A DNA stretch of 64,000 bases. Source: an uncultured Pelagibacteraceae bacterium. Its GTDB lineage: Bacteria > Pseudomonadota > Alphaproteobacteria > Pelagibacterales > Pelagibacteraceae. A model generated the notes under the pieces. That model saw nothing but the letters and a program-made list of their open reading frames with translations. It made no database searches and was not told the origin of the DNA. The position numbers and the translations under genes were made by a program. Positions 10,891 through 35,759 of the stretch are shown piece after piece. Where the stretch lies: NCBI GenBank assembly GCA_902569405.1, contig CACFTX010000001.1:372001-436000 (forward strand), given 5' to 3'. Positions within the stretch are counted from its first letter, which is position 1, and each line of letters starts with the position of its first letter.

Positions 10891-12003
10891 TTACAACTTT
10901 CCAATATATTTATCATGAAAATCATCAAAAGTGCCTTTTTTAATATGTTCTCTTATTGATTTCATCAGTTCTTGATAAAAATTAATATTGTGTAAAGTTA
11001 GCAACATGGACGCTAAAATTTCATTTGTATTAAATAAATGATTTAAATAGTTTTTAGAATATTTGTTTAAATTAAAATTATTACATTTGGGATCAAGTGG
11101 TTGATTGTCTTTTTGATATTTAGAATTTTTTATATTTACTCTACCATTCCATGTGAAAGCCAATCCAGTTCTACCTGATCTTGTCGGTAAAACACAGTCA
11201 AACATATCAATTCCTCTTTTTACAGCGCCTAAAATATCTGATGGTGTTCCAACGCCCATAAGGTATCTTGGTTTATCATTTGGCATGTGATCTTTTAGAA
11301 CATCCAGGATTTTAAACATTTCAACTTGAGTTTCACCAACTGCTAAGCCTCCTATTGCATATCCATCAAAATTGATTTTAATAAGTTCATTCAATGATCT
11401 TATTCTTAAATCATCAAACAATCCGCCTTGTACAATTCCAAATAATGCTTTGTGAGGAATTACGCCAAATTCTTTTTTTGATCTAAGCGCCCAATACAAA
11501 GATAGTTCCATAGATTTTTGGATTATTTTATAATCTTTAGATCTTTTTGGACATTCGTCCATAACCATTAATATATCCGAATTTAAATTTTTTTGTATTT
11601 TGATACTTTCTTCAGGACTTAAAATAATTTTTTTTCCATCAATATGCGAGTTGAATATTGCTCCTTTTTCTCTATCTATTCTATTAAGTTTAGACAAAGA
11701 CATAACTTGAAATCCTCCAGAGTCAGTTAAAATTGGTAATGAACAGTTCATAAAAGAATGCAGTCCGCCAGCAAATTTAACTCTATCAACTCCAGGTCTT
11801 AACATTAAATGATACGTGTTAGATAATATTATTTCCGAACCAGTTTTGACAATATCATTAATAAATGTAGCTTTTACAGTTGCTTGTGTACCAACAGGCA
11901 TAAATGCAGGGGTGTTTATAATTCCCCTGTGAGTTTTTATTACTCCACATCTAGAGAAATTATCCGTTTTAATTACATTAAAAGAAAATTTTTTTAATGC
12001 CAT
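10891..12003 (-). CDS. tgt: tRNA-guanine transglycosylase with eroded zinc site
   Basis: Exchanges guanine 34 for a queuosine precursor in tRNAs with GUN anticodons. Catalytic elements are intact: TDSGGFQVMS with Asp94, the GIVQGG substrate loop near 189-194, and FDCVLPTR with nucleophile Asp269. Length of 370 residues is normal. The structural zinc site is not intact: the family pattern of three cysteines plus a histidine reads Cys307, Asn309, Leu312, His338. The 31-residue Cys-to-His spacing matches the E. coli protein (302 to 333), so the alignment is secure. The enzyme may fold without zinc, or be impaired. Upstream neighbours ppiA and coaD are on the same strand. Confidence 0.93.
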   Translation of the reverse strand: MALKKFSFNVIKTDNFSRCGVIKTHRGIINTPAFMPVGTQATVKATFINDIVKTGSEIILSNTYHLMLRPGVDRVKFAGGLHSFMNCSLPILTDSGGFQVMSLSKLNRIDREKGAIFNSHIDGKKIILSPEESIKIQKNLNSDILMVMDECPKRSKDYKIIQKSMELSLYWALRSKKEFGVIPHKALFGIVQGGLFDDLRIRSLNELIKINFDGYAIGGLAVGETQVEMFKILDVLKDHMPNDKPRYLMGVGTPSDILGAVKRGIDMFDCVLPTRSGRTGLAFTWNGRVNIKNSKYQKDNQPLDPKCNNFNLNKYSKNYLNHLFNTNEILASMLLTLHNINFYQELMKSIREHIKKGTFDDFHDKYIGKL

Positions 12004-12012
12004 TAAAAAAAA

Positions 12013-12573
12013 TTACAACGACTTAAAGGCTATAATTTTATCAGGATTTTCCACAGATCCATTTTTATTTTCATCGCCTCTTTTGATTTTATCAACAAAC
12101 TCCATACCTTCAATTACTTTACCAAATACGGTATATTGTCGATCTAAGAATGGTGCAGCTTTAAAACAAATAAAAAATTGACTATTTGCACTATTAGGGT
12201 CTTGTGATCGAGCCATAGATAACGTTCCTCTATCATGAGGAAGATTGTTAAATTCTTGCTTTAAATTTGGTAAGTTTGATCCTCCCATACCTGCTCTGTT
12301 TAAATCAAAATCAACACTTGTAGAATTTCCGTATTGAACATCTCCAGTTTGAGCCATGAATCCATCTATTACCCTGTGAAAAACAACACCATCATATTTA
12401 CCATCATTAGCTAAACTTTTTATTCTTTCGACATGCTTGGGTGCGATATCAGGAAATAATTCTATTTTAACATCTCCATCTTTTAATTTTAATATCATAA
12501 TGTTTTCTTCTCCTATCAAGTTATTTGTTGTTAAAATAAGTAAAATTAATACTCGTAATAAAAACTTATTCAT
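12013..12573 (-). CDS. ppiA: Cyclophilin-type peptidyl-prolyl isomerase, exported
   Basis: Catalyses cis-trans isomerisation of prolyl bonds. The 186-residue protein starts with a cleavable signal (about residues 1-21, MNKFLLRVLILLILTTNNLIG), so it should act in the periplasm. The cyclophilin core is clear: FHRVIDGFMAQTGD, then SMARSQDPNSANSQFFI and the FGKVIEGMEFVDKI block. It overlaps coaD by 8 bases and precedes tgt by 9 bases. Confidence 0.92.
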   Translation of the reverse strand: MNKFLLRVLILLILTTNNLIGEENIMILKLKDGDVKIELFPDIAPKHVERIKSLANDGKYDGVVFHRVIDGFMAQTGDVQYGNSTSVDFDLNRAGMGGSNLPNLKQEFNNLPHDRGTLSMARSQDPNSANSQFFICFKAAPFLDRQYTVFGKVIEGMEFVDKIKRGDENKNGSVENPDKIIAFKSL

Positions 12574-13060
12574 ATTTTAATTTTAAAGCTTTTATTGTGC
12601 TTTTAGTTGTAAATTTATTAATATCACCACCTAATGAAATTATTTCTTTAACGAAATTTGATGAAATGATTTGATTTTCTACATTTGACATTAAAAATAT
12701 AGTTTCTATAGAATTATTTAACTTTCTATTCATTCCAGCTAATTGAAATTCATATTCAAAATCTGAGACCGCTCTCAACCCTCTTAAAATAATATTAGAA
12801 TTATATTTTTTACATAAACTTGTAGTTAAAGATTTAAATGAAATGATTTTAATTTTTTTTTTATTAAGTTTTAAATCACTATATAAAGCTTTTTTAACAA
12901 TGCTAATTCTTTCATCTGAATCAAAAAGATAATTCTTATTATTTATATCTGATATAGCAACCACAACAGTGTCAACAATTTTCAAAGCTTTTTTAATTAC
13001 ATCAATGTGACCATATGTAATTGGATCAAATGTTCCAGGATAAATTGCACTTTTTTTCAT
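12566..13060 (-). CDS. coaD: Phosphopantetheine adenylyltransferase
   Basis: Penultimate step of coenzyme A synthesis: transfers AMP from ATP to 4'-phosphopantetheine. The nucleotidyltransferase motif is AIYPGTFDPITYGHIDVI at residues 5-22 (T/HxGH), and the C-terminal ISSNFVKEI is in the ISSSxVR position. The RGLRAVSDFEYEFQLAGMN block is characteristic. 164 residues is the family length. The start overlaps the gyrA stop by one base (TAATG), giving likely translational coupling. Confidence 0.95.
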   Translation of the reverse strand: MKKSAIYPGTFDPITYGHIDVIKKALKIVDTVVVAISDINNKNYLFDSDERISIVKKALYSDLKLNKKKIKIISFKSLTTSLCKKYNSNIILRGLRAVSDFEYEFQLAGMNRKLNNSIETIFLMSNVENQIISSNFVKEIISLGGDINKFTTKSTIKALKLKYE

Positions 13061-16194: not shown

Positions 16195-19071
16195 ATGCAA
16201 AAAAAGATAGTTATTAAGGGCGCAAAAGAACATAATTTGAAGAACATTTCTTTAGAGCTACCCAAAGATCAGTTTGTGGTAATAACAGGACTTTCTGGAT
16301 CTGGAAAATCATCTCTTGCATTTGATACAATATATGCTGAGGGACAAAGAAGGTATGTTGAAAGTTTGTCTGCATACGCAAGACAGTTTTTAGATAAAAT
16401 GAAAAAGCCTAATGTCGATTTAATTGAGGGTTTAAGTCCAGCTATATCGATTGAACAAAAAAATACATCTAAAAACCCAAGATCAACAGTTGCAACAGTT
16501 ACAGAAATTTATGATTACATGAGAGTTTTATATGCAAGAGTTGGAACTCCATATTCACCATTTACAGGGAAACCTATTCGGTCTCAAACAATATCACAAA
16601 TTGTTGATAAAATTAAAAAACTTCCTAAAAAATCTACAATATATTTATACTCACCTGTGGTTAGAGGTCGTAAGGGTGAATATAAAAAAGATATATTAGG
16701 ATATAAAAAAAGAGGATTTAGAAAAATAAAAATTGATAATACTTTATACGAAATAGATAAAATTCCAGAATTAAATAAAAAAGTCAAACATGATATATCA
16801 ATATTGGTCGACCGAATTGTTATAAATTCTGATTTAGGAAATAGATTAGCAGAAAGCATAGAAACGTCTATAAATCTTTCTAATGGTCTTCTATTCGTTG
16901 AGTATGAAAATGAAACATTACCTAAAAAATTTAGAAAAGTTGAAAAATTAATATTTTCAACAAAGTTTGCGTGTCCTGAAAGTGGTTTTACAATTGAAGA
17001 AATTGAACCTAGATTGTTTTCTTTTAACAGCCCTTATGGAGCATGTGAAGAATGTGAAGGAATAGGCATCAAATTAAATGTAGATGCTAAGTTGGTAGTG
17101 CCAGATGAAAAAAAAACCATATCAGAAGGTGCTATTGAACCATGGTCTAAAACTACTACATTGTATTACGCTCAAACCTTAGCTTCATTAGCTAAACACT
17201 ACGGTTTTTCATTAGACGAAAGATGGAGCAAATTAAGTAAAAAAATAAAAGATATAATACTTTTCGGATCAGATGACGATGAAATTAAATTTTCTTATGA
17301 TGATGGATACGAAAAATATTCTTATAAAAAAACATTTGAAGGAGTTATAAATAATTTAGAAAGAAGATATCTTGAAACTGATAGTGATTGGAAGAGAGAA
17401 GAAATTGCTCAATATCAATCTGACTCAGATTGTGAAAAATGCAATGGTAAAAGATTAAAAGATGAAGCATTATGCGTAAAAATTAACAGTTTAAATATAA
17501 GTCAAGTAGCTGAAAAATCTATTTTAGATGCCACTTCTTGGTTTAAAAATCTAGAATCCAAATTAACACCAATAGAATTAAAAATAGCAGAGCATATTCT
17601 GAAAGAAATTAATGAAAGATTAAATTTTCTATTAAATGTAGGTTTAGATTATTTAACTTTATCAAGGATATCAGGAACATTATCTGGTGGAGAAGCACAG
17701 CGAATACGACTAGCTTCACAAATAGGCTCAGGTCTCACAGGTGTTTTATATGTATTGGATGAGCCTTCCATTGGATTACATCAAAAAGATAATGTTAAAT
17801 TAATAAATGCTCTTAAAAGATTAAGAGATTTAGGTAATACAGTTATAGTTGTTGAACATGATACTGAAACAATGGAAAATGCAGATCATATAATTGATTT
17901 GGGTCCAGAGGCTGGAAGTAAAGGTGGTGAAATTGTTGCTCAGGGAACTTATGATGATGTTGTTAAAAATACAAAAAGCATTACTGGAAAATATTTATCA
18001 CACAGAATGTTTATACAAATTCCAAACAAAAGAAGATTAGCAAAAAATGGTAGATTTTTAGAAATTAATGGTGCTACAGGAAATAATTTAAAAAATATAA
18101 ATTTAAAAATACCACTAGGTGCTTTTACATGTGTGACTGGAGTTTCTGGAAGCGGTAAATCTACTCTTATACTTCAAACTTTATATAATGCCTTAAACTT
18201 AACTCTTAATAATAATAAATCTAGAAAAATTCCAAAACCTTTTAAAGGATTTAAAGGAATTGAATTAATTGATAAAGTAATAAACATAGATCAATCTCCA
18301 ATAGGAAGAACTCCAAGATCAAATCCCGCAACATATACAGGAGCTTTTGGTCCAATAAGAGATTGGTTTACAATGCTTCCTGAGTCAAAAAGTAGAGGTT
18401 ACAGACCTGGTAGATTTTCATTTAATGTTAAAGGCGGACGATGTGAAGCTTGTGAAGGTGATGGGGTGATAACTTATGAAATGCACTTTTTGCCAGATGT
18501 ATATATCCAATGTGATGAATGTAAAGGCACTAGATATAATAGAGAAACATTAGAAATTAAATTCAAAGATAAAAGCATAGCTGATGTTTTAAATATGACT
18601 GTTGATGATGGGTGTGAATATTTTGAAAATATCTCAAATATTAAAACTAAATTGCTAACACTTAAAAAAGTTGGTTTGGGTTATATTAAGATAGGACAAC
18701 AAGCAACTACATTATCAGGAGGTGAAGCTCAGAGAATTAAATTAGCAAAAGAATTATCTAAACGATCAACAGGAAGAACTATGTATATATTAGATGAACC
18801 AACCACTGGTCTTCATCAACACGACATAAAAAAACTTTTAGAAATTTTGCATACTTTTGTTGCATTAGGAAATACCGTGGTTGTAATTGAACATAATCTA
18901 GATGTAATTAAAACTGCTGATTATATTGTGGATATGGGACCTGATGGAGGTATTAATGGTGGAAAAATAATTGCCGAAGGTAAACCTGAAGAAATTTGCG
19001 ATGTTAAAGAGAGCTATACTGGTGGTTTTTTGAAACCTATGCTTGATAATAAATATAAAAAAACAGCTTAA
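16195..19071 (+). CDS. uvrA: UvrABC excinuclease subunit A
   Basis: Damage-recognition ATPase of nucleotide excision repair. Two ABC modules are present: Walker [10 protein letters not shown] near residue 31 and GVSGSGKST near residue 654, with [14 protein letters not shown] and [14 protein letters not shown] signatures. The C-terminal zinc finger has CEACEGDG and CDECKGTRY. The first zinc region begins CPESG, with Ser in place of the second cysteine, and continues to CEECEG; I believe the Ser is usual in Alphaproteobacteria. 958 residues, complete. An out-of-frame ATG lies 14 bases upstream of the chosen start. Confidence 0.97.
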
Positions 19072-32658: not shown

Positions 32659-33717
32659 TTAACAACCTTTGAAAGATTTAGACATGTTTTTGATTAAATC
32701 AAAATATAAATCTTTACCTGGATTAAGAGTAGCTCCTAATGGATCTAAAACACCAGTACTTATATTCATGTCTTTTGCAACAGCATTAATTATATCAGGA
32801 TTAAATTGAGGTTCTGAAAATACACAACTCACTTTATCATGTTCAATTATTTCTCTGATTTCAGATAATTGCTCAGCTCCAGGTAATACATCTGTATTTA
32901 CTGTAAAAGCTCCTAGTACATTAACATCAAATCTTTTTTCGAAATATTGATAGGCGTCGTGGAAAACAATAGATTTAAAGTCTTTATTTAATTCAGACTT
33001 CACATCTTTTGTTAGTTTGTCTAGATCTTTTAAGGCTTTTTTTAAGTTACTTTTATAAACTGACGCGTTCTTTTGATCTTTTTCAATCAGATGTTCAGCC
33101 ATTTCTTTTAAAATTACTTTTGCATTTGAAGGATCTAACCAAATGTGTGGGTCATATTCGCCATGTGCATGACCTTCGTGTCCGTGATCATCGTGACCGT
33201 CTTCTTTGTGTTCATCATCATGACCGTGATCATCGTGACCGTCTTCTTTGTGTTCATCATCATGACCGTGATCATCTTCTTTTTTTGCGTGATCATCATG
33301 ACCATCTTCTTTGTGTTCATCATCATGTCCATGATCGTCATGGCCGTCAAAAATATTTCTTTCTCTAAATTTTAACTTATTTAGTCCTTTTATTTCGATT
33401 AATTCAATTTTTTCAGCTTTTTTAGCTATTGATTTTAACGGTTTCTCTAAAAAATTTTCCAAATCTTCCCCAACCCAAAAAATTAGGTCAGCTTCTTGGA
33501 GCATTTTTGCATGGGATGGTTTTAATGCAAAACCATGGGGAGAGGCATATCCATCTACTATTAATCCTGGTTTGCTTGCTCCATCCATTAAATAACTTGC
33601 CAGTGAATGAATTGGTTTAATTGATGCTACAACCTTTGTTTCAGCATTAGCAGGTGAAAAAAAGGTTAATAATGATAAAATTGATAAGATAATTGGTATT
33701 TTTTTTAGATTTTTCAT
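32659..33717 (-). CDS. znuA: Zinc ABC transporter substrate-binding protein ZnuA
   Basis: Periplasmic zinc receptor of a cluster 9 ABC importer. Signal peptide through residue ~25 (ending SPANA). The metal ligands are spread over three lobes: His61 region GYASPHGFALKPSHA, a central His in EYDPHIWLDPSNAK, and His in SIVFHDAYQYF. Residues 126-187 form a loop with 18 histidines and many Asp/Glu, built from 14-residue repeats and thought in this family to collect zinc. The protein ends in FKGC. It is divergent from znuCB-zur, and the 74-bp spacer has two Zur-like palindromes. Confidence 0.95.
   Translation of the reverse strand: MKNLKKIPIILSILSLLTFFSPANAETKVVASIKPIHSLASYLMDGASKPGLIVDGYASPHGFALKPSHAKMLQEADLIFWVGEDLENFLEKPLKSIAKKAEKIELIEIKGLNKLKFRERNIFDGHDDHGHDDEHKEDGHDDHAKKEDDHGHDDEHKEDGHDDHGHDDEHKEDGHDDHGHEGHAHGEYDPHIWLDPSNAKVILKEMAEHLIEKDQKNASVYKSNLKKALKDLDKLTKDVKSELNKDFKSIVFHDAYQYFEKRFDVNVLGAFTVNTDVLPGAEQLSEIREIIEHDKVSCVFSEPQFNPDIINAVAKDMNISTGVLDPLGATLNPGKDLYFDLIKNMSKSFKGC
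33193..33339 (-). repeat. 14-codon His-rich repeats in znuA, two in perfect tandem
   Basis: Three copies of a 42-bp unit coding DDHGHDDEHKEDGH. Copies 33193-33234 and 33235-33276 are adjacent and identical base for base; the third, 33298-33339, encodes the same peptide with several silent differences and is separated by seven codons. Identity at third positions in the tandem pair means a recent duplication. Confidence 0.93.
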
Positions 33718-33736
33718 AATTAAAATATTTAGTTAT

Positions 33737-33751
33737 TGTTATAATATAACA
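33737..33751. promoter_or_regulatory. Candidate Zur operator 1
   Basis: TGTTATAATATAACA, a perfect 7-1-7 palindrome, 19 bases upstream of the znuA start. Fur/Zur-family sites are typically inverted repeats of this kind with TGTTAT half-sites. Zur is encoded 1.6 kb away in the divergent operon. Confidence 0.72.
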
Positions 33752-33754
33752 TAG

Positions 33755-33769
33755 TGTAATATTATAACA
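33755..33769. promoter_or_regulatory. Candidate Zur operator 2
   Basis: TGTAATATTATAACA, a 7-1-7 palindrome with one mismatch, 3 bases from operator 1 and 22 bases upstream of the znuC start. Two tandem sites in one divergent spacer would let Zur repress both directions. Confidence 0.65.
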
Positions 33770-33791
33770 TTTAAATAAGTCAAGTATAAAA

Positions 33792-34538
33792 ATGAGCTCA
33801 AATAACAATTTATTAGTTAAGTTAAATAATGCTGGTTATCAGCATAATGACAAATGGCTTGTTAAAGGGGTCTCATTAAGAGTTGAAAAAGGAAAAATTG
33901 TAACTCTTATTGGTCCAAATGGTTCTGGAAAAAGTACAACTGCAAAAATTGCTTTGGGTATTTATAAAAAAATTGATGGGGAAGTTGAAAAATATACAAA
34001 TAAAGTTGGTTATGTTCCCCAAAAAATCTCAATAGATTGGACATTGCCACTTAGAGTTCGTGACTTCATGTTATTAACGGAAAACCTTAAAGATGAAGCA
34101 ATCAATGAAGCTTTGTCATTAACAGGTGTTATACATCTTAAGGATAAAAATTTAGGCAATTTATCTGGTGGTGAATTTCAAAGAGTTTTACTAGCAAGAG
34201 CTATTTCAAAAAAACCAGATTTATTAGTGCTTGATGAACCTGTTCAAGGTGTTGATTTTACTGGAGAGATTGCTTTGTACGAACTAATTAAAAAAATATC
34301 AGATGAATTAAATTGTGGAATTTTATTAATATCTCATGATTTACATACAGTAATGAGTGCTACTGATCATGTTGTTTGTTTAAATGGTCATGTTTGTTGT
34401 TCAGGATCTCCAATTGATGTTGCAAAAAATAATGAATACAAAGCTTTATTTGGTGAGCAAGCTTCTCAAATACTCTCAAGATATGAACATAAACACGATC
34501 ATGTTCATACAAATGATGGTGAGATAAAGAAAAATTAA
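33792..34538 (+). CDS. znuC: Zinc ABC transporter ATP-binding protein ZnuC
   Basis: ATPase of the zinc importer. Walker A GPNGSGKST near residue 39, signature LSGGEFQRVLLARA, Walker B LLVLDEP and the switch His in ISHD. 248 residues. The C-terminal tail is His-rich (EHKHDHVHTND), as in many ZnuC proteins. The znuB ATG follows the stop directly, so the two are coupled. Confidence 0.94.
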   Translation: MSSNNNLLVKLNNAGYQHNDKWLVKGVSLRVEKGKIVTLIGPNGSGKSTTAKIALGIYKKIDGEVEKYTNKVGYVPQKISIDWTLPLRVRDFMLLTENLKDEAINEALSLTGVIHLKDKNLGNLSGGEFQRVLLARAISKKPDLLVLDEPVQGVDFTGEIALYELIKKISDELNCGILLISHDLHTVMSATDHVVCLNGHVCCSGSPIDVAKNNEYKALFGEQASQILSRYEHKHDHVHTNDGEIKKN

Positions 34539-35342
34539 ATGTTTGATGATTTTTTTATAAGAGCACTTGTTGCAGGGCTTGGAGTTGCATTTGTAACCGG
34601 CCCACTTGGCTGTTTTGTAGTTTGGAGAAGATTATCATATTTTGGAGATACACTTGCACACTCTGCACTACTTGGTGTTACCTTAGCTTATTCTTTTGAA
34701 CTGAACATTGCGTTTTCAGTATTTATAATTTCATCTTTAATAGCTTTAATTTTAATACAACTTCAAAAAAGAACTAATTTACCTGGTGATGCTTTACTTG
34801 GACTTTTAGCGCACTCTTCACTAGCTGTTGGACTTGTGGTTATCGGTTTTTTAACATTTATTAGATTTGATATTATGGGATTACTATTTGGTGACATATT
34901 AGCAGTGACGGTTGATGATCTATTAATTATATGGATAGGAGGTGCATTAATTTTATTAGTATTAAAATTAATTTGGAAACCTTTATTTGCATCAACTGTA
35001 AACTATGAATTAGCAGAAGCAGAGGGATTAAATCCTGATAGAGCAAAAGCAATTTTTACAATCTTAATGGCTGCTATTATTGCAATCTCAATCAAAATGG
35101 TTGGACTATTATTAATTACTGGAATGTTAATCATACCTGCTGCTATGGCTAGAAATATTTCAGACAGTCCACAAAAAATGGTAATTTATTCAATCATTGG
35201 CGGATTGTTATCTGTAATTATAGGATTATTCTCTTCATTAGAATTTAATACGTCATCTGGACCTTCAATTATAGCAGCCTCTTTATTCTTATTTATCTTG
35301 TCATTATTAAATATAAAACAATCTATTAAATTGAAAAATTAA
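34539..35342 (+). CDS. znuB: Zinc ABC transporter permease ZnuB
   Basis: Membrane component of the zinc importer; 267 residues and about seven to eight membrane segments. WRRLSYFGDTLAHSALLGVTLAY and LPGDALLGLLAHSSLAVGLV are the ABC-3 family hallmarks, and GLLLITGMLIIPAAMARNIS is the conserved C-terminal block. Starts immediately after znuC and is followed 15 bases later by zur. Confidence 0.94.
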   Translation: MFDDFFIRALVAGLGVAFVTGPLGCFVVWRRLSYFGDTLAHSALLGVTLAYSFELNIAFSVFIISSLIALILIQLQKRTNLPGDALLGLLAHSSLAVGLVVIGFLTFIRFDIMGLLFGDILAVTVDDLLIIWIGGALILLVLKLIWKPLFASTVNYELAEAEGLNPDRAKAIFTILMAAIIAISIKMVGLLLITGMLIIPAAMARNISDSPQKMVIYSIIGGLLSVIIGLFSSLEFNTSSGPSIIAASLFLFILSLLNIKQSIKLKN

Positions 35343-35357
35343 AAAGGAATCAGTAAA

Positions 35358-35759
35358 ATGAATAAAATGCATAAAGAACATTCTCTCACAAAAAATCAGC
35401 AAATTATTTTTGATTTAATTGATAAATCTACTGAACCATTAAAAGCTTACTCAATACTTTTTAATGTTCAAAAAAAAGGTATTAAAGCTCCATTACAAGT
35501 TTATCGAGCATTAGATAAGCTAGTTGAAATAGGAAAAATTCATAAAATTGAGAGTAGAAATGCTTTTATTGCGTGTCACAATTCAAGTTGTCAGGTAGCA
35601 AAAGCTACTGCGTTTTCAATCTGTGAGATTTGTGAAAAAGTAACAGAAATAAGTAGCGCAGGTCTTTCTAAATACTTAGCTAATTTCAAAGACAAAGATG
35701 GTATGAAATATAGTAAATACAATCTTGAGTTTTTTGGATTATGTAAAAAGTGTAGATAA
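35358..35759 (+). CDS. zur: Fur-family zinc uptake regulator Zur
   Basis: Zinc-responsive repressor. 133 residues with an N-terminal winged helix (LTKNQQIIFDLIDKSTEPLKAYSIL to YRALDKLVEIGKIHKIES) and a C-terminal dimerisation domain. Structural-zinc cysteines are CEIC and the final CKKC; sensing ligands may include the CHNSSC segment. The call as Zur rather than Fur rests on its place directly after znuCB and on the palindromes in front of the operon. Good RBS AAAAAGGA lies before the ATG. Confidence 0.9.
   Translation: MNKMHKEHSLTKNQQIIFDLIDKSTEPLKAYSILFNVQKKGIKAPLQVYRALDKLVEIGKIHKIESRNAFIACHNSSCQVAKATAFSICEICEKVTEISSAGLSKYLANFKDKDGMKYSKYNLEFFGLCKKCR

Follow-up and report, generated by a model that had tools for sequence, protein, structure and literature searches.

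As far as sequence can tell, the loss of the structural zinc site from a known enzyme family, the tRNA-guanine transglycosylases (TGTs), is real, fixed in the Pelagibacterales and recurrent. The explanation favored here, which we regard as probable, is that this is an active TGT that folds without structural zinc, that the site has decayed recurrently in the Alphaproteobacteria, and that salvaged preQ1 is the end point. The window (the whole 64,000-nucleotide stretch of uncultured Pelagibacteraceae DNA that was analyzed) carries the gene, its ligand codons and the adjoining genes as follows, with counts for the loci read from the same genus.

10891 to 12003, minus strand: tgt, tRNA-guanine(34) transglycosylase of 370 aa with its zinc ligands lost (TIGR00430, PF01702)
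11083 to 11085, minus strand: codon TGT for Cys307, the only zinc cysteine remaining (Cys in 61 of 83 genus loci)
11077 to 11079, minus strand: codon AAT for Asn309, at the place of the second zinc cysteine (Asn in 59, Lys in 20 and another residue in 4 of 83)
11068 to 11070, minus strand: codon TTA for Leu312, at the place of the third zinc cysteine (Leu in 83 of 83)
10990 to 10992, minus strand: codon CAC for His338, the fourth zinc ligand (His in 60 and Asn in 23 of 83)
12013 to 12573, minus strand: ppi, prolyl isomerase of the cyclophilin type, next to tgt on its upstream side (PF00160, 161.6 bits)
12566 to 13060, minus strand: cytidylyltransferase-family gene, upstream in the same gene run (PF01467, 79.2 bits), which we take to be coaD-like

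The window protein scored 455.6 bits against TIGR00430 (curated equivalog cut-off 306.75) and 473.8 bits against PF01702 (cut-off 26.3), and its nearest named relatives among the matches listed were proteins of uncultured Pelagibacteraceae with 78-81% identity. Alignment to the Zymomonas mobilis TGT chains in the PDB and to E. coli tgt placed the four listed positions on the zinc ligands, so that the window set is C307-N309-L312-H338 as compared with Cys-Cys-Cys-His (CCCH) in E. coli, whose gene was also carried through as a control and read CCCH. The Cys-x-Cys-x2-Cys...His zinc site is therefore not present in the window protein. An earlier note on this DNA had read the same four residues from the letters, and the codons and the alignment agree with it. 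It was also right that the catalytic pair, Asp94 and Asp269 (Z. mobilis 102 and 280), is intact in the translation and that the Cys-to-His spacing of 31 equals that of E. coli, where the residues are 302 and 333. Since the window genome (98.6% complete) has a single match to PF01702, no second, zinc-binding TGT copy was found in it.

The same loss was found across the order. TGT was detected in 75 of 101 genomes of the genus and in 259 of 297 genomes of the order, or 141 of 150 where completeness was at least 90%, with a tgt match absent from the other 9. Not one of the 115 Pelagibacterales TGT loci that were read has an intact CCCH site. These loci encode 113 distinct proteins (L045 is identical to L276, and L084 to L292) and comprise 83 from the genus, 18 from other Pelagibacteraceae, 12 from a second family, and the named loci L283 and L292. 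Throughout, the loci read were the best-scoring ones of each search plus 120 further regions. For the genus, the 83 read are fewer than the genomes matched; they include the window's own locus and 7 named loci assigned to the genus by their 78-81% identity. Within the genus the ligand sets were CNLH (50 loci), VKLN (12), CNLN (6), CKLH (5) and others (10); Cys307 is gone in 22 of the 83 loci, His338 in 23, and all four ligands in 17. The ligand sets were V/I-C-S-H or C/T/L-I/L-L-H/N in the other Pelagibacteraceae genera and S-N-C-H in the second family, and the two named loci agree with this (L283 is CLLH, L292 is SNCH). Which cysteine is retained thus differs between lineages of the order. 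The earlier note had held that relatives with an intact CxCxxC would overturn its reading, and none was found among the 115.

The loss is not confined to the Pelagibacterales. A sample of 142 genomes from the class, nearly one per family, contained TGT in 129, of which 127 lay outside the order; 125 of these were readable and the other two were N-terminal pieces only. With three second copies (L135, L210 and L212) set aside, 97 of the 125 genomes were CCCH and 28 were not, with at least two ligands lost in 25 and a single ligand lost in 3 (CCSH, CCLH and CGCH). Among 80 named loci, 55 were CCCH and 25 were not, namely 9 from Pelagibacteraceae and 16 from others that include Caulobacter, Phenylobacterium, Rhizobium (three), Mesorhizobium, Brucella rhizosphaerae, Xanthobacter and an Acetobacteraceae bacterium. 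The TGTs of Methylobacterium and Sinorhizobium meliloti also have no complete zinc site. All 27 named loci from outside the Alphaproteobacteria (26) or from the Magnetococcales (1), chosen by similarity, were CCCH. No CCCH was found among the best 30 of 190 Hyphomicrobiales genomes with TGT, a set biased by being nearest to a zinc-lost query. Two second copies deserve mention in their own right. One genome (G401) carries two TGTs, L102 and L210, with the site incomplete in both alignments (FECH and L--H), and the second TGT of another (L212 of G388) is the reverse of the window case: it keeps CCCH, but Ile stands where catalytic Asp269 would be.

A tree of 219 TGTs (150 CCCH, 69 not), from which the motif columns had been removed beforehand, was used to count the changes. 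The fewest state changes were 18 on the FastTree tree, where midpoint rooting gives 16 losses and 2 possible regains, and 19 on the maximum likelihood (LG+G4) tree, on which 20 label shuffles gave 53-66. When no regain was allowed, 22 edges inactivated the site. These 18-22 changes are far below the shuffles, and therefore the state of the site is both inherited within clades and recurrent; these trees put the losses of the zinc site in the Alphaproteobacteria at about 20. Counting without regain on the maximum likelihood tree placed one break at the 7 tips of the second family and a separate one in a 22-tip group (support 61) made up of Pelagibacteraceae and four other small-genome rows. The 29-tip Pelagibacterales clade also holds the small-genome rows L088, L112, L131 and L162, for which shared loss and a long-branch artefact are indistinguishable.

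Against the favored reading, TGT is said to need zinc for activity in E. coli in a passage of PMC9508795 that cites Chong 1995. All 69 zinc-lost rows of the tree have Asp94, Asp149, Gln192 and Asp269, and also the dimer hot-spot residues Tyr319 and His322; the pocket residues Val222 and Glu224 are present in 62 and 61 of the 69. By alignment, the window protein has a preQ1-type pocket, with GGLAVGE (218-224) carrying Val and DEC (149-151) carrying Cys; the specificity roles of these residues are described in PMC11570991 and in the available part of PMC3660597. The aromatic hot spot of the Z. mobilis homodimer, given as Phe92, Trp326, Tyr330 and His333 in the portion of PMC5395182 at hand, corresponds in the window sequence to a cluster of F84, Y315, Y319 and H322, in which Tyr replaces Trp at 315 and of which positions 315, 319 and 322 do not vary among the 83 genus loci. 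Within the genus the median dN/dS was 0.093 (593 of 600 random pairs), at a median dS of 1.47 that is near saturation. The earlier note had suggested modeling the C-terminal subdomain, and the AlphaFold2 model is confident there (mean pLDDT by block of 92-98 for residues 301-350, 94.0 overall, the same as the 93.7 of a zinc-intact control). It shows the TIM-barrel TGT fold with a C-terminal helical subdomain and superimposes on Z. mobilis 1ozm with a TM score of 0.96 and an rmsd of 1.1. However, the model speaks only weakly for stability in the absence of zinc, because its alignment includes zinc-binding TGTs, and it may impose their fold. The window protein is 53% identical to the Z. mobilis enzyme and shares with it and with E. 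coli TGT the catalytic aspartates, GGLAVGE, DEC and the hot-spot positions; unlike them it does not form the three-Cys-plus-His site and has Cys87 at the place of Z. mobilis W95.

Because purifying selection, the invariant Leu312, the kept interface cluster and the confident fold model agree, the Pelagibacter TGT is probably active. In the mechanism that we propose, the two aspartates would exchange guanine-34 of GUN tRNAs, and zinc would be a stabilizing staple with no catalytic role, so that the C-terminal subdomain could fold without it. Adequate packing around the site, to which the Leu at the third cysteine place may contribute in Pelagibacter by taking over from zinc, would leave the ligands free to change.

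The strongest functional comparison comes from S. meliloti. The tgt of strain Ak57 (CP090106.1, L386) reads Ser-Cys-Thr-Asn at the ligand positions, with three of the four ligands lost, and an ORF recognized as queA by motif lies between ppi and tgt. In the sections of PMC3568095 available, tgt mutants of strain 1021 are defective in HeLa-cell and nodule phenotypes, and preQ1 rescues queC and queF mutants but not tgt or queA mutants. By this published genetics, a zinc-lost S. meliloti TGT is functional downstream of preQ1, with the genetics from strain 1021 and the sequence from strain Ak57. S. meliloti differs from the window in that queA is kept and a full queuosine pathway is described (PMC3568095, in the same sections). 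The CP090106.1 record, 3.7 Mb long and labeled plasmid pSymB, holds tgt, ppi and queA and is probably mislabeled; tgt and queA are placed on the main S. meliloti chromosome in that part of PMC3568095. A second comparison is Bartonella henselae, whose TGT gives partial complementation of an E. coli strain with tgt deleted and which, with its bTGT and QPTR, resembles the window in having tgt without queA and a GGLAVG pocket (PMC11570991, whose text has no occurrence of zinc). One further TGT (L373) reads SCAN and lies at a 35% GC locus with two ppi ORFs and tgt but no queA between; its 1.5-Mb genome belongs to the same family as rhizobia-like genomes of 6-7 Mb, and its source is plausibly Bartonella-like. 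From the fixation of the loss in the order, the purifying selection and the S. meliloti genetics we infer, with good support, that the Pelagibacter enzyme binds no zinc, as the earlier note had proposed.

One alternative, which we consider unlikely, is that the protein still binds metal at a remodeled site made up of Cys307 and His338, Asn309, or a new cysteine, for example Cys87 from the other subunit of the dimer. Cys307 and His338 do covary in the genus (C/H 55, C/N 6, non-C/H 5 and non-C/N 17 of 83 loci, uncorrected for descent), the three class members that lost a single ligand could be read in the same way, and Cys87 is found in 83 of 83 genus loci in place of the Trp of 150 of 150 zinc-intact rows. 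However, no ligand is left in 17 of the 83 genus loci, in LILN (L058) or in SVAV (G437), and Cys87 is present even where residue 307 is Val. The earlier note had also named a cysteine set moved elsewhere in the fold as a way in which its reading could fail. Cysteine occurs in more than 30% of genus loci only at positions 19, 46, 87, 151, 270 and 307, which form no new cluster in the sequence, and with Cys87 independent of Cys307 a replacement set was rejected. Codon 87 itself (window 11743-11745) corresponds to Z. mobilis Trp95, near the interface residue Phe92 in sequence, and among the 69 zinc-lost rows the position is Cys in 13 and Phe in 2.

The earlier note had offered the loss as a saving in the zinc-poor surface ocean, and had pointed to an expanded ZnuA nearby. 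The genes in question are as follows.

32659 to 35759: znuA (minus strand), znuC-like ABC ATPase, znuB-like ABC-3 permease and Fur-family gene (all plus strand) (PF01297, PF00005, PF00950, PF01475)

ZnuA (32659-33717) does have a long, repeated His/Asp-rich insert and is adjoined by the ABC transporter genes and the Fur-family gene, but it lies 20.7 kb from tgt. Zinc saving also has on its side that every locus read in the order is without the site and that bL36 of the window genome is without Cys as well. However, all 28 alphaproteobacterial bL36 sequences that could be read are without CxxC, both in genomes with a zinc-intact TGT and in those without (29 loci, L390-L418, in 30 genomes, with one unreadable), and because marine lineages are not singled out, bL36 is uninformative on zinc economy. 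The same TGT loss occurs in Caulobacter, Rhizobium, Mesorhizobium, Xanthobacter, Methylobacterium and S. meliloti, six taxa that are not surface-ocean plankton, and genome size was unassociated with the state of the site (125 genomes, medians of 2.45 and 2.5 Mb for the two states, Mann-Whitney p = 0.25). The gain per cell would also be small. Zinc uptake cuts both ways: in the portion of PMC4771312 available, about half of SAR11 genomes retain the high-affinity system, yet the loss is fixed in SAR11 while znuA is found in only 50% of its genomes. With so many non-marine lineages losing the site and no link to genome size, scarcity of zinc in the ocean is rejected as the main cause, and we give an adaptation of this kind little chance.

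The queuosine pathway raises a further alternative, that the Pelagibacteraceae protein is a degenerate or moonlighting enzyme left over after decay of the pathway. In its favor, queA was found in 0 of 31 Pelagibacteraceae genomes tested and queH in 0 of 36 Pelagibacterales genomes (including the same 31 of 31 negative for Pelagibacteraceae), while matches to queC and queF in the Pelagibacterales tested were weak, with no strong one among them, and the best QueC and QueF matches in the window genome resolved as GuaA and FolE. A de novo pathway was thus not found in Pelagibacteraceae. The catalytic and pocket residues are nevertheless intact, dN/dS is about 0.09, tgt is kept in 141 of the 150 order genomes of at least 90% completeness, and the site is also lost where queA is kept (17 of 20 not-CCCH class genomes tested). 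Decay into a degenerate protein is accordingly very improbable, and the partial loss of function that the earlier note had allowed for is disfavored by the same intact residues and low dN/dS. An error or strain mutation in the window gene can be dismissed, with virtually no chance left to it, because its one argument is that the window is a single assembly and relatives from many assemblies (115 of 115 order loci) are also without CCCH.

To return to the favored reading of an active enzyme, the missing genes bear on its substrate. Since no queA, queC, queF or queH was found, the base inserted by tgt is probably preQ1 obtained by salvage, and because queA is gone the pathway in Pelagibacteraceae would end there, with preQ1 as the likely end product. 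The queuosine precursor transporter of the window genome (TIGR00697, 91.6 bits, cut-off 50.95) would import preQ1 and the TGT would insert it. The PF02592 transporter family was present in 35 of 36 Pelagibacterales genomes. Of 8 genus genomes in which no tgt was matched, 7 (G039, G198, G206, G235, G037, G056 and G240) also carry it, so that transporter and tgt are not strictly tied; either tgt falls in an assembly gap in these genomes or the transporter has another cargo. Salvage of queuine was considered as well, given the missing queA and queH and the weak queC and queF, and was rejected because the pocket Val and Cys are of the preQ1 type and because preQ1 was already the case made for Pelagibacter in PMC11570991. 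That 2024 paper proposed Pelagibacter tgt without queA and preQ1 salvage, and this part of the present account is not new. Elsewhere it states that all analyzed organisms except Bartonella kept tgt, queA and queG, which sits uneasily with its own Pelagibacter proposal and with the absence of queA here.

The loss of queA and the loss of the zinc site do not go together. All 5 second-family genomes tested have queA, and so do 17 of 20 not-CCCH as compared with 8 of 9 CCCH class genomes; the zinc-site loss is therefore not linked to queA loss. The loci themselves agree: in 7 of the second family, where queA sits between ppi and tgt as in S. meliloti, the start of tgt is overlapped by an ORF whose end is of the QueA type, and in 9 of the Pelagibacteraceae ppi stops no more than 13 bases from tgt, leaving no queA in the interval. 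The order cytidylyltransferase-family gene, ppi, tgt was also found in the Pelagibacteraceae loci compared.

A search of the open-access literature, with subscription papers largely outside its scope, found no earlier report of TGTs without the zinc site. A zinc-binding domain is given as one of two hallmarks of TGTs in the available part of PMC6165067, and the text of a cryo-EM study (PMC13416341) has no occurrence of zinc. The closest analogy is with the zinc-independent paralogues treated in the accessible portion of PMC2770081, which like the window TGT belong to a zinc protein type but are missing its ligands; those are second copies regulated by zinc (Zur), whereas the window TGT is the sole copy, with no paralogue found. 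We are evenly divided on the broader claim that TGT needs no zinc generally, with about 20 packing replacements in the Alphaproteobacteria and the SAR11 enzyme alone making preQ1 its end product. With function kept in at least one model symbiont, the recurrent loss in this class would make the zinc requirement a lineage-specific trait and would give a natural series for what replaces a structural zinc. It would also caution against including TGT in the zinc quotas of marine bacteria, and a sharper question would be whether or not preQ1 is present in SAR11 tRNAs.

The window holds one other altered zinc motif. The first zinc finger of uvrA (16195-19071) reads FACPESGF, with Ser for the second Cys of the pair, while the later CxxC...CxxC finger is intact; such a change in this uvrA finger is probably common in alphaproteobacteria.
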